Shown piece by piece: positions 4,106 to 8,627 of a stretch of 64,000 bases of DNA (the first letter of the stretch is position 1; the number at the start of each line of letters is the position of its first letter). The translations under genes were made by a program, and so were the position numbers. The notes under the pieces are model-generated. The model was given only the letters and a program-made list of their open reading frames with translations. It searched no databases and was not told where the DNA came from. The DNA lies in contig CAIXAE010000009.1 in NCBI GenBank assembly GCA_903917345.1, forward strand, positions 62,001 through 126,000, in the 5' to 3' direction. The stretch is from an uncultured Methylococcaceae bacterium (lineage in GTDB: Bacteria; Pseudomonadota; Gammaproteobacteria; Methylococcales; Methylomonadaceae).

Positions 4106-5800
4106 CTAACAGATGTCATTTATAGCATGCTCGGTATGAAAAAAAACCTTTCCTGGTTTTAATAGCGTAAAGAAGTGGGTTTTTTCAAGTTTATCAAATA
4201 CAGGTCCTTTCACTTCAGAGAGATGTAACAAAATCCCTTCTGATTGTAAGGCCCGATTTAAATTTTCTAATGTTTCCAATGCGGTCGTATCAATATCACT
4301 AACCGAAGTTAGAATAAGGACTATATGCTTTATTTCAATTTGACCCTTGAGCTCATGGGCAATAAACTTTTCAATAAAGTTCACATTAGTAAAAGTGATA
4401 CTTTCATCAATCCGGAGCAACAATAAATGCGGCCAAGTTTCCACTTTATGTCGTTTAATATTTCGATAATGTCCTGTATTTGGGATACGCCCCACTACAG
4501 CAATATGCGGCTGACTGGTTTTACGCAAATAACTCACAAAAGTCAGGATAACACCTAAAGTGATGCCCTCCTCAATGCCTAATACCAAAACCCCTAACAA
4601 TGTTACACATTCTGCTAGGCCATCGCCTCTATCATAACGCCAAGTTTCAATTATTTTATCTAAACGCACTAAAGGGATAATGGCTACTAAGATAATTGCA
4701 GCTAAAGCCGCTTTAGGAATATTTTGAAATAAAGGCGCACAAAACATAACCGCTATTGCCAGAATACCCGCGGCAATTAACATCGCTATTTGAGTTCTTG
4801 CTCCAGCAGAAAAATTTACCATGGTTCTACTAAAACCACCCGCTACTGGCATGCCACCTGATATAGCCGTCGTCAAATTAGCCATACCCAAGGCAATCAG
4901 CTCTTGATTAGGTGCGATTTTCTCACTTCTCAAATTTGCCATCACTTTTGCAATAGCCACACTCTCTACATAAGCTATTAAAGCGATGAATGCCGCACTA
5001 GGTAATAACAAACGCCAATGTTCACTGGCTATAAAATTAAGATTTAATGTAGGAAACCCACTAGGCACTGCTCCAACAACCTTAATAGCACCCAGTTCCT
5101 TAAAGTAAACTACGACTAAAGTGCTTATCAGTACCGTTAGCAATGGACCACATTTACTCATAGCGATAACTAACGAGGGTTTTACACGATTCTTTTTCAA
5201 CAACCAGATCAACGGTTTTCCAAAGAAAACGAGTAATACGATAGCTGCAACACCGAGTAATAAAGTTTCAGAATTGTAATTTAAAAGAGATTCTTTATAA
5301 CAAGGCCATACCCCATTGCATTCAAAGCTTTTTAAACCCACTAATTGTGGCAACTGACTGCCAATAATTAATAAAGATGCTCCACTGGTAAAACCTGTTA
5401 AAACGGGATGACTAATAAAGTTTACTAAGCCACCCATTTTCAGAACCGCCATTAGCAACATTATTAAACCGCTTTCAGCTGACAATATTAAAGCACTCTC
5501 AACCGGTTGCCCTAATACACTCACTTCGGGTGAATTAAGCACCCCGGCAATCATAATCGCAGCAATAGAAACAGGGCCTACCGATAAAGTCCGACTGGTA
5601 CCTAATAATACATAGATAACGGGCGGTAAGATACTGGCATACAAGCCTAATTGGGGCGGTAATCCCGCTAAGATTGCATACGCAATACCTTGAGGAACCA
5701 ATAAAATTGCCGTGATAATTCCAGCAAATAAATCGCCATTAAAATCCTGGCGGGAGTATGTTTTTAACCAAGTAAAAATAGGAAAAAACGAATGAATCAT
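4106..5800 (-). CDS. SulP family inorganic anion transporter with STAS domain
   Basis: 564 residues: a SulP membrane domain (about residues 20-410, including the signature GLYASILPPVIYVLLGTSRTLSVGP and a second block GGMPVAGGFSRTMVNFSAGARTQ) followed by a cytoplasmic STAS domain (about 435-550, with VSDIDTTALETLENL). SulP proteins carry sulfate, bicarbonate or other anions. Being third in line after persulfide dioxygenase and SQR on the same strand, it is a plausible carrier for sulfate or sulfite made by sulfide oxidation. The 120-bp gap and a hairpin at 5864-5883 leave open whether it is cotranscribed. Confidence 0.9.
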   Translation of the reverse strand: MIHSFFPIFTWLKTYSRQDFNGDLFAGIITAILLVPQGIAYAILAGLPPQLGLYASILPPVIYVLLGTSRTLSVGPVSIAAIMIAGVLNSPEVSVLGQPVESALILSAESGLIMLLMAVLKMGGLVNFISHPVLTGFTSGASLLIIGSQLPQLVGLKSFECNGVWPCYKESLLNYNSETLLLGVAAIVLLVFFGKPLIWLLKKNRVKPSLVIAMSKCGPLLTVLISTLVVVYFKELGAIKVVGAVPSGFPTLNLNFIASEHWRLLLPSAAFIALIAYVESVAIAKVMANLRSEKIAPNQELIALGMANLTTAISGGMPVAGGFSRTMVNFSAGARTQIAMLIAAGILAIAVMFCAPLFQNIPKAALAAIILVAIIPLVRLDKIIETWRYDRGDGLAECVTLLGVLVLGIEEGITLGVILTFVSYLRKTSQPHIAVVGRIPNTGHYRNIKRHKVETWPHLLLLRIDESITFTNVNFIEKFIAHELKGQIEIKHIVLILTSVSDIDTTALETLENLNRALQSEGILLHLSEVKGPVFDKLEKTHFFTLLKPGKVFFHTEHAINDIC

Positions 5801-5920: not shown

Positions 5921-7168
5921 TCAATCTTCGTTGGTAAACTTTTTAGCATAAGACGCTAAATGTGGAATATCAATACGATAGCCTTTTAACATTAAAGACC
6001 AATACATCCAGGGAAAGCCCATTACTTTCCCTATCCACCAGATAAATAGATTTTTTCTAGGGTCTAGCCAAGGAAATGAGGGGGTGACTTTCCCGCCGTA
6101 ACAAAACTCTGCCAACATGACAGTGCTTAAAGACGTTGTTAATGGGCATGAGCCATAACCGTCATATTTATCACTTAAGGCTTTACCTGCCATCATATGA
6201 AAAATATTATCGACTAAAATAGGCACTTGCTTTCTAACGGCTGCCGCTGTTTTAGCATTGGGCGTTGATGTCGCATCACCCAATCCAAAAATATTGGCAT
6301 ATTGTGTATGTTGCAATGTATTTTCATTAACATCTACCCAACCGGCGGCATTAGCTAATGGACTCGCCTTAATAAAGTCCGGTGCGCTTTGGGGAGGTGT
6401 CACATGTATCATGTCAAACGCTTTAACAACCTGTTGTTTATTTCCATCGGCATCCGTTGCTTCAAACGTCGCTGTTTTAGCGTCGCCATCAATAGCCACT
6501 AGATTATGAGAAAAATTAGTCTTAATACCATACCCAGCTACCACTTTACTTAAAGCCTTAGCGAAAAAAGGTATCCCAAAAAGGGCTGGACCGGCATTAC
6601 AAAACTCAATATTAAATTTATCTAATATGCCTTTTCTACGAAAACGATCCGCCGCTAAATACATGATTTTTTGAGGCGCACCCGCACATTTAATCGGCAT
6701 AGGAGGCTGAGTAAATAAAGCCGTACCTGATTGCAGTGACTGAATACATTCCCACGTATATTCAACAGTCTCAGCAGAATAATTACTGCATACATTATTC
6801 TTTCCAATGGTTTCTTTTAAGCCAGCGATTTTGTCCCAATCTAATTGTAAACCTGGACAAACCACTAAATAGTCATAACTCACCGCCTCACCTGAGCGTA
6901 AAGTGACGGTATTAGCCTCTGGCTGAAAAGTATCCGCATACTCTTTAATCCACTTAACAGTAGGATGTATTAAATCTGCTTCGTTACGGGTGGTCTTTTT
7001 TAAGGTATAGGCCCCGCCACCAATAATAGTGAAGCCAGGCTGATAATAATGTTTTTCTGATGGCTCAATAATAGCAATATCAATTTTAGCATTTTGCCGA
7101 CGCATGTTATTGGCGACAGAAACGCCCGCGGCACCGCCCCCAATAATTAATACAGTGTGATGTGTCAT
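5921..7168 (-). CDS. sqr: sulfide:quinone oxidoreductase
   Basis: 415 residues of an FAD-dependent SQR that oxidises sulfide and passes electrons to the quinone pool at the inner membrane. The FAD-binding Rossmann motif is at G10GGAAG15 and a second dinucleotide/FAD motif at GLGDAT (295-300). Two candidate redox cysteines are present, C161 in IKCAGAPQK and C341 in GSCPLTTS; their spacing matches the catalytic pair of the mitochondrial/type II SQR group. Aromatic C-terminal helices (FIWWIGKVMGFPWMYW) fit membrane association. It follows the persulfide dioxygenase-rhodanese gene after 111 bp, and the pair makes a complete route from sulfide to sulfite or thiosulfate. Confidence 0.93.
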   Translation of the reverse strand: MTHHTVLIIGGGAAGVSVANNMRRQNAKIDIAIIEPSEKHYYQPGFTIIGGGAYTLKKTTRNEADLIHPTVKWIKEYADTFQPEANTVTLRSGEAVSYDYLVVCPGLQLDWDKIAGLKETIGKNNVCSNYSAETVEYTWECIQSLQSGTALFTQPPMPIKCAGAPQKIMYLAADRFRRKGILDKFNIEFCNAGPALFGIPFFAKALSKVVAGYGIKTNFSHNLVAIDGDAKTATFEATDADGNKQQVVKAFDMIHVTPPQSAPDFIKASPLANAAGWVDVNENTLQHTQYANIFGLGDATSTPNAKTAAAVRKQVPILVDNIFHMMAGKALSDKYDGYGSCPLTTSLSTVMLAEFCYGGKVTPSFPWLDPRKNLFIWWIGKVMGFPWMYWSLMLKGYRIDIPHLASYAKKFTNED

Positions 7169-7208
7169 AAAGTCCTCGAGTTCTTATTTATAATTATTTT
7201 TAATCATA

Positions 7209-7254
7209 CAAGTGGTCTTCGTTTATGAATTGAATTCATTAATTCAACCACTTG
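7209..7254. repeat. long inverted repeat between persulfide dioxygenase and SQR genes
   Basis: Outer arms CAAGTGGT (7209-7216) and ACCACTTG (7247-7254) are perfect complements, and an inner near-palindrome around 7225-7240 (ATGAATTGAATTCAT) can extend the hairpin. There is no U-run on either strand, so an operator or mRNA processing/stability hairpin is as likely as a terminator. Confidence 0.45.
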
Positions 7255-7279
7255 CAGTTTATCTTATGTTTTAATTTTT

Positions 7280-8371
7280 TTATACGGCTTCTTTTTGCCA
7301 AGCCTCAAAACCACCGGCCATAGACAACACATTGTTATACCCTAACGTCTGCAATGTTTGTGCTGCTAGAGCTGATCGCCCCCCCGTACGACAATAAATT
7401 AAGACCGCTTTCGATTTATCAGCCAAATCGGGGGTCGCGCCAATTTTAAATTCTAATACACCACGCGGTAACAAAATTGCGTTATCAATATGGGCGGCTG
7501 AGTATTCACTTTCTTCTCGGGTATCCACCAACACAATATTACCTTCTGCTAACAATTGTTTTGCAGTCGTCACATTCACTTCAGTAATATGTTGTTTGGC
7601 TTCAGTCACTAAGTCTTGTGGAGACACTTGATTACGAATTGGTTTTACAGAATCCCTTAATAAAACCGCATCCTGACGCTCTTTCTCATCTAAACCACAA
7701 TAACGGTTAGCAGGCACAGCCTCATCAATTAAGCGGGGTCTAGGTAAATTAAGATTATTCATAATCTCAATAAACTCTGCTCTTGATTTACCGGTTAAAC
7801 GCGGATTATTAGTGCGTTCTTGTTTGATAGTACTAATCCAGCGACCTTGATAATCATGACCTGGATAAACGATGGTTTCATCTGGTAGCGTAAATAAACG
7901 TTGCGTAATACAATCATAAAGTGCGCCTGCATCGCCACCTTGGAAGTCAGTACGACCACACCCACCCACGAATAAAGAGTCACCTGTAAAAACGCGATCT
8001 CTCCATAAAAAAGAAATACTGCCGGGGGTATGACCTGGAGTTGCAATGACTTTTACGTGTTCCGTTTCACCTAGCGTAAAAATATCACCGTCTTGAATTT
8101 GTACATCCGCTGTTTGTGCGCCACACAAAGCACTTACTGCAGTTTGCGCACCTAATTTTTGACGTAAGATACCGCTGGCTGTGATGTGATCCGCATGCAC
8201 ATGCGTTTCTAACGAATATTTTAATTGCAAGCCATGTGCGGCTAATAAATCAATATATTCATCAATATGTATGTTTACTGGATCAATAAATAGCGCTTCT
8301 TTACTGACTGGATCACCTATTAGATAGGTATAAGTCCAGGTTTCTTTATCAAATAATTGTTTAAAAATCAT
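7280..8371 (-). CDS. persulfide dioxygenase-rhodanese fusion (ETHE1-like)
   Basis: 363 residues with two domains. Residues 1-240 are an ETHE1-type metallo-beta-lactamase fold with THVHADH (H57, H59, D61, H62), H114 in TPGHTPGS, D131 in FTGDSLF and H172 in YPGHDY; H57, H114 and D131 are the expected mononuclear iron ligands of persulfide dioxygenases. Residues 263-360 are a rhodanese domain with active-site loop C327RTGGRS. The dioxygenase oxidises glutathione persulfide to sulfite, and the rhodanese can combine sulfite and persulfide into thiosulfate. The gene stands upstream of SQR, behind a sigma-54-type promoter at 8444-8459, so its expression is probably switched on by sulfide or persulfide. 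Confidence 0.93.
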   Translation of the reverse strand: MIFKQLFDKETWTYTYLIGDPVSKEALFIDPVNIHIDEYIDLLAAHGLQLKYSLETHVHADHITASGILRQKLGAQTAVSALCGAQTADVQIQDGDIFTLGETEHVKVIATPGHTPGSISFLWRDRVFTGDSLFVGGCGRTDFQGGDAGALYDCITQRLFTLPDETIVYPGHDYQGRWISTIKQERTNNPRLTGKSRAEFIEIMNNLNLPRPRLIDEAVPANRYCGLDEKERQDAVLLRDSVKPIRNQVSPQDLVTEAKQHITEVNVTTAKQLLAEGNIVLVDTREESEYSAAHIDNAILLPRGVLEFKIGATPDLADKSKAVLIYCRTGGRSALAAQTLQTLGYNNVLSMAGGFEAWQKEAV

Positions 8372-8443
8372 AGCGTCACTCCCGTGTCATTTGTTGTGGT
8401 CACACAGTTTTTGTGTAAAACAGATAAAATCTATTTCATATAT

Positions 8444-8459
8444 AGCAATGGCCATGCCA
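8444..8459 (-). promoter_or_regulatory. sigma-54 (-24/-12) promoter for the sulfide-oxidation genes
   Basis: Read on the minus strand the sequence is TGGCATGGCCATTGCT, against the sigma-54 consensus TGGCAC-N5-TTGCW. GG and GC are separated by exactly 10 bp. The predicted start site, about 12 bp downstream near 8434, leaves a leader of roughly 60 nt before the dioxygenase ATG at 8371. Inverted repeats sit about 110-150 bp upstream, the usual distance for a bacterial enhancer-binding protein. Confidence 0.7.
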
Positions 8460-8546
8460 ATTTCTATATGCCTTTATAACTTATTGTTTTTCATAATCAT
8501 GAATACCCTAATAAAAAGTTATAATCGTAGTACTTAGCCATCTAAA

Positions 8547-8561
8547 TGTTTCAATGAAACA
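8547..8561. promoter_or_regulatory. inverted repeat, candidate enhancer site 1
   Basis: Perfect inverted repeat TGTTTCA-A-TGAAACA. It lies about 115-125 bp upstream of the start site predicted for the sigma-54 promoter. A further TGAAACA half-site occurs at 8584-8590. Confidence 0.5.
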
Positions 8562-8563
8562 TA

Positions 8564-8581
8564 TTGGTTCATATGATACAA
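8564..8581. promoter_or_regulatory. inverted repeat, candidate enhancer site 2
   Basis: Imperfect 18-bp palindrome TTGGTTCATATGATACAA (7 of 9 positions symmetric), two bases from the previous inverted repeat. Two adjacent dyads fit cooperative binding of an enhancer-binding protein. Confidence 0.4.
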
Positions 8582-8627
8582 ATTGAAACATCCATAAGAC
8601 ATCTCACTTCACTCATACATACCGTAT

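Follow-up and report, generated by a model that had tools for sequence, protein, structure and literature searches.

Among the closest described systems are sulfide-oxidation genes under Fis-family activators in Cupriavidus and Acinetobacter. In Cupriavidus pinatubonensis JMP134, sigma-54-dependent activation of sulfide-oxidation genes by the Fis-family activator FisR is described, and three conserved cysteines of that protein are reported to cross-link (PMC9774590). The FisR of Acinetobacter baumannii is reported to be without the conserved Cupriavidus regulatory cysteines; there the operon A1S_1707-1711, encoding PDO1, SQR, TauE and hsd, lies beside fisR, and deletion of fisR abolishes sulfide induction (PMC7315123). 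For methanotrophs, the effect of H2S was called virtually unknown in 2023 (PMC10205796). The sqr genes of Methylobacter sp. S3L5C rise with sulfide and dissolved organic matter, and the passages of that report considered here name no regulator of this rise (PMC12211021). In the collection of open-access papers searched, we found nothing on sigma-54 control of a methanotroph sulfide quinone reductase and nothing on TGTTTCA as a sigma-54 enhancer.

The window, by which we mean the whole 64,000-nt stretch of DNA that was analysed, carries a set of short motifs upstream of a putative persulfide dioxygenase (PDO) gene. With a probability of roughly 0.88, we read this region as a FisR-type sigma-54 promoter and enhancer for the PDO-SQR operon of a gammaproteobacterial methanotroph, with the activator encoded elsewhere in the genome.

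Table 1. Features of the putative PDO-SQR locus and its upstream region; offsets are given in bp from the start of the sigma-54 box.
Feature	Position	Strand	Remarks
Possible third operon gene, SulP-family sulfate permease with STAS domain	4106..5800	-	
Sulfide:quinone reductase (SQR)-like flavoprotein	5921..7168	-	415 aa; after PDO
Predicted stem-loop, 10-bp outer stem	7208..7255	-	between PDO and SQR; RNA fold
Putative PDO, metallo-beta-lactamase fold fused to rhodanese domain	7280..8371	-	363 aa; first gene of putative operon
Predicted sigma-54 (-24/-12) promoter, TGGCAT-GGCCA-TTGCT	8444..8459	-	predicted start ~8434
Candidate activator site 1, perfect dyad TGTTTCA-A-TGAAACA	8547..8561		half-sites at -102, -94
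Candidate activator site 2, imperfect dyad TGGTTCA-TA-TGATACA	8565..8580		half-sites at -121, -112
Outer half-site TGAAACA	8584..8590	+	at -131; absent from the initial annotation

The name PDO rests on the predicted domain order and on 39-41% identity to an A. baumannii gene of the metallo-beta-lactamase (MBL) fold that adjoins a FisR-like gene. For the SQR-like protein, the best NCBIfam match was SQR_III_seleno, with 232.9 bits under its cut-off of 525. Of 40 loci, 13 have a SulP gene after SQR and 3 more have one directly after PDO, many loci ending too early to tell; SQR, and possibly SulP, would share one operon with PDO. The 112-nt gap between PDO and SQR folds as RNA at -18.6 kcal/mol (a single fold, computed without shuffle control), and the stem-loop within it might tune SQR relative to PDO.

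As the initial annotation had claimed, the minus strand carries TGGCAT-N5-TTGCT with exact GG-N10-GC spacing (TGGCATGGCCATTGCT, 8459-8444). The distance of about 60 nt to the dioxygenase ATG (8371) given there fits the predicted transcription start, which lies 63 nt upstream, but not the box itself, which begins 88 nt and ends 72-73 nt upstream. Likewise, the first of the two adjacent inverted repeats described there stands and is perfect (8547-8561, 14 of 14 paired positions palindromic), while the second is imperfect and spans 8565-8580 rather than 8564-8581; its half-sites have one mismatch each, and its arms are complementary at 5 of 7 positions. A stray half-site with at most one mismatch lies at -34 from the box. 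The gene for sigma-54, rpoN, the absence of which would have spoken against this kind of promoter, was found in the genome. In the window there is a single exact box, and allowing up to one mismatch gives 6 matches against 5.88 expected; genome-wide there are 11 exact boxes compared with 3 for a reversed control pattern, and two of the others precede nifH and a gene of the nitrogenase component 1 type. The dyad has one exact match in the window and 3 matches at up to three mismatches, compared with 6.0 expected. Across the genome, 19 places match it with up to two mismatches compared with 23 for the control, one of them without mismatch (8547-8561) and none with one. For box and dyad, exact matches alone stand out from chance and near matches are at chance level, so that the case leans mainly on conservation.

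For comparison with A. baumannii we used CM018764.1, which derives from another strain than that of PMC7315123. Here a regulator gene is divergent from genes for an MBL-fold protein (PDO), SQR, a TSUP transporter and homoserine dehydrogenase, an order in agreement with that of A1S_1707-1711; the likely identity of the regulator gene with fisR rests on this gene order and a one-way search. The MBL-fold gene is 39% identical to the window PDO, and the SQR match, at 50%, sits in a gene annotated 'TIGR01244 family phosphatase'. Both operons have a sigma-54 box preceded by five half-sites (at most one mismatch) at near-equal offsets, namely -132 (TGTTTCA), -121, -113, -100 and -92 in A. baumannii and -131, -121, -112, -102 and -94 in the window. 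This likeness is one of sequence only, while the FisR dependence of the Acinetobacter operon is known (PMC7315123). In both cases PDO comes first and SQR second, and the FisR-like activator is without the Cupriavidus cysteine triad. The two differ in that the activator gene is divergent and adjoining in A. baumannii but lies on another contig in the window genome, that the window PDO carries a rhodanese domain, unlike that of A. baumannii, and that the third gene is SulP in the window whereas a TSUP transporter and then homoserine dehydrogenase follow in A. baumannii. In A. haemolyticus and A. junii (L203, L206) the box and dyad are kept with offsets of -136, -112, -104 and -81.

The absence of a fisR-like gene beside PDO, pointed out in the initial annotation, was confirmed, and of the two options left there, an activator encoded elsewhere or one of a new type, the former is favoured. 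A genome search for a FisR-like sigma-54 activator, as had been proposed, found L005, a 452-aa PAS-AAA+-HTH_8 protein encoded on contig C6 (G000:C6:69737-71092), another contig than that of PDO. It matches PF00158 and HTH_8 and contains GAFTGA, and its PAS_9 match is below the cut-off of that family. An AF2 model of the orthologue L182 has a PAS-like order of elements at its N-terminus at moderate confidence (mean pLDDT 67, pTM 0.41); the 50 Foldseek matches listed were mainly sigma-54 activators aligned via the AAA+ domain and are uninformative on the sensor. Searched against the plasmid collection, L005 has four regulators of A. baumannii as its top matches, with 41.7-43.3% identity over 92-96%, and its HTH helix GMSRATFWRKRK resembles the helix GISRTTLWRYRQ of the A. 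baumannii FisR-like protein. L005 is the best candidate for the protein that binds the dyads. Its neighbours we take to be an ispG-like gene and a DEAD-box helicase-like gene. With regard to autoregulation, no exact half-site or box was found in the 511 bp upstream of L005. Just before position 1072 of the L005 locus, 2 nt ahead of the L005 start codon, lies the end of an ORF of about 45 aa (MGPYYQ...) whose product looks like a membrane protein.

That another enhancer-binding protein of the genome, for example the short AAA+-HTH protein L003 or L004, acts through the dyads instead is improbable. Candidates exist: a search with the sigma-54 activator domain gave eight strong matches in the genome, of which all but L007 and L008 carry GAFTGA or GAFSGA; six further matches of 19.6-28.8 bits, near the cut-off, were taken for other AAA+ proteins. 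L003 adjoins what is presumably a transporter-like membrane gene, which we counted in favour of this alternative. However, the L003 type is found in 94 of 101 family genomes, far more than have the sites, and L003 was rejected as dyad activator on that count. L004, L007, the NtrC-, NifA- and NtrX-like proteins and the two-component activators were rejected on their recognition helices: among the eight strong matches only L005 has a helix of the SRxTxWRxR type that the A. baumannii FisR shows, from which those of the other seven differ. The labels NtrC-, NifA- and NtrX-like are our own, and the co-occurrence analysis covers L003 and L005. Also against other activators at these sites, an own-genome regulon scan found the PDO box to be the only one of the 11 exact boxes with exact half-sites, the 300 bp upstream of each of the other ten containing neither TGTTTCA nor TGAAACA in exact form.

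Within the family, PDO (E ≤ 1e-60) was found in 95 of 101 genomes and an L005 orthologue (E ≤ 1e-90) in 66. At 32 of 98 PDO places the activator gene lies within 1 kb of PDO, in 30 of them divergently; fisR adjoining pdo was treated as a common arrangement rather than a requirement, and the window genome does not have it. We scored upstream stretches of 281-450 bp at all 98 listed PDO places, using weights of our own. A score of at least 14 anywhere upstream was reached at 48 of 67 places with an activator in the genome versus 1 of 31 without, and a dyad with at most two mismatches at 41 of 67 versus 1 of 31; mononucleotide shuffles gave 25/4900 and 23/4900, respectively. Counted by genome, 54 of 64 with the activator have at least two exact half-sites upstream of PDO, versus 1 of 31 without it (Fisher p 4.7e-15, relatedness ignored), and a box score of at least 13 within 130 bp of PDO was found in 54 of 64 versus 2 of 31. 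At genus level, activator and sites are both present in 20 and both missing in 6, with the activator alone in 2 and the sites alone in none. A within-genus permutation of activator versus sites gave a weak p of 0.029, the genomes not being independent. In genera g18 and g24, the one PDO genome each without activator is also without sites and box, and in G034 the activator match holds two stops and both sites and box are missing. Opposing cases are G076 (73% complete), with half-sites and box, and G013, with a one-mismatch dyad; no activator was found in either. Because of these two genomes, and because the offsets in L203 and L206 differ, our confidence in the FisR-type reading was slightly lowered. 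Overall, box and dyads recur upstream of orthologous PDO genes in the methanotroph family, the conservation that the initial annotation had proposed to look for, and together with rpoN this supports a predicted sigma-54 promoter with activator dyads before PDO-SQR.

Ten of the 64 activator-positive genomes have no half-sites at PDO. Among them are all three of genus g3 (G030, G054 and G075), in which activator orthologues are present; in G096, a small rhodanese gene stands between the site and PDO. In seven genomes (G008, G035, G040, G058, G063, G077 and G096) the activator match does not start until residue 114-136, and the open frames have 311-380 aa, which looks as though the sensor is missing or can no longer be recognised; three of these matches (G040, G058 and G077) are also interrupted by stop codons. 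The distances from half-site to box, 27 genus-distance values below 140 bp, fall mostly at 90-94 and 98-103, with R 0.54 at a period of 10.5 (p 0.00075 versus a uniform spread). Periods from 10 to 11.5 score alike (0.50-0.55), so that we reject a clean helical period and retain clustering only.

Another alternative is that the dyads bind a repressor, such as an ArsR-type BigR or SqrR, with the operon being read mainly from another promoter. BigR controls a second PDO in A. baumannii (PMC7315123), which lends this alternative some precedent, but the half-sites sit where an enhancer would, 94-131 bp upstream of the box, and their occurrence follows that of the activator gene; a repressor is very unlikely.

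An exact pattern of dyad, 75 to 105 bp and box was found in 40 stretches of the genome collection, 30 of them from Methylococcaceae-group methanotrophs; in one of these stretches (L195), PDO is 99% and SQR 100% identical to the window. We assigned 34 stretches to PDO, 31 by tblastn, L197 by the ORF start, L185 as a degenerate PDO start before SQR and L193 as G077:C97. At locus L187 of Methylobacter tundripaludum SV96, a cultured relative, box and dyad are the same and a fisR-like gene adjoins. The other six comprise one before a cydA-like gene (L208), three from Providencia, one from Thermoanaerobacterales that precedes a family 4 glycosyl hydrolase, and one contig end. In one A. haemolyticus plasmid (L267) no PDO or SQR is annotated, and L212 is a record without annotation. 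From these sequences, the dyad-plus-box pattern appears to be common to Acinetobacter, Methylophilus and methanotrophs, which we count as new. A slightly looser pattern gave 53 places in 50 of 237 family genomes and none for the reversed control; 42 places were read individually and 11 were PDO promoters already scored above. Of the 53, 49 precede PDO and/or SQR genes, three precede cydA and the last lies at the end of a contig. Five of the places, all in genus g13, have a small gene in first position, that of L261, the sole one scanned, being a rhodanese, and only SQR was seen after it. Near matches that do not exceed expectation, in the window for both motifs and genome-wide for the dyad, would allow box and dyads to have arisen by chance in AT-rich DNA. 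This is hardly credible given these 53 places versus none and the strong conservation: of the 28 genera with PDO, 20 have half-sites, and the 6 without activator have none.

The three Providencia stretches (L173, L194 and L199) share the exact dyad upstream of a sigma-54 box. The gene following in L173 is the methylisocitrate lyase gene prpB (NCBIfam), and L199 begins with a similar protein. SRTTLWR is the helix of the two activators that were read (L194 and L199), and the Providencia activator, encoded beside prpB and presumably PrpR, is 32-41% identical to L005 over parts of its length. This case suggests that the helix rather than a sulfide function sets the site, and since Providencia pairs the dyad with prpB, the dyad is not exclusive to FisR.

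With respect to the sensor, Cys71 is the only cysteine of L005 before the AAA+ domain, the sole other one being Cys201. In an alignment of 57 proteins, two of them from Providencia and one from A. baumannii (no protein was obtained from 6 of 62 loci), the Cys71 column holds cysteine in 45 but not in the A. baumannii protein. A three-cysteine signature was rejected as a general feature, as sensor cysteines range from 0 to 6 among the 57 proteins. L005, with one sensor cysteine versus none in the A. baumannii protein, does not have the three of Cupriavidus FisR, a protein likened here via descriptions only, and was not filed under this subtype.

FisR-type half-sites and a sigma-54 box also precede cydA in three relatives, L246 (G130), L254 (G127) and L257 (G150). 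A PF01654 match identifies the L257 protein as cytochrome bd subunit I, and L246 and L254 match this protein at 86%; next to the cyd genes of L254 lies a fisR-like gene in divergent orientation. The cydA of the window genome itself (L266) has no such sites in 1500 bp. CydAB rises with sulfide in A. baumannii (PMC7315123, Fig. 6 legend), and cytochrome bd has been linked to sulfide-resistant respiration (Forte 2016). We tentatively propose, with somewhat less than even confidence, that the PAS domain of methanotroph FisR, with its single and often conserved Cys, reads reactive sulfur without a three-Cys cross-link and that in some species the regulon couples sulfide oxidation to a terminal oxidase switch; the latter is suggested by the position of array and box before the cytochrome bd genes of these three relatives.

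In the window genome, sigma-54 RNA polymerase would wait at TGGCAT-N5-TTGCT in a closed complex. The activator, a PAS-AAA+-HTH protein of FisR type whose gene lies on a different contig, would occupy the stretch from 94 to 131 bp upstream of the box, binding as dimers to the two TGTTTCA/TGAAACA dyads, which are about 19-20 bp apart, and also to the outer half-site. When its PAS domain receives a reactive-sulfur signal, ATPase assembly would be released and the promoter opened, and PDO-rhodanese and SQR would then be made. The locus offers a specific, testable candidate regulator, operator and promoter for the methanotroph sulfide response, in common with A. baumannii. To the known systems it adds an operator array, the sharing of this array with Acinetobacter and Methylophilus, and a candidate link of sulfide regulation to cytochrome bd.

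Elsewhere in the genome, G000:C8:146144-149176 (loci L004, L007 and L214) holds two tandem short activators, of which L007 is without GAFTGA. They lie close to sigma-54 boxes before large exported-looking proteins, as in a further, putative sigma-54 regulon.
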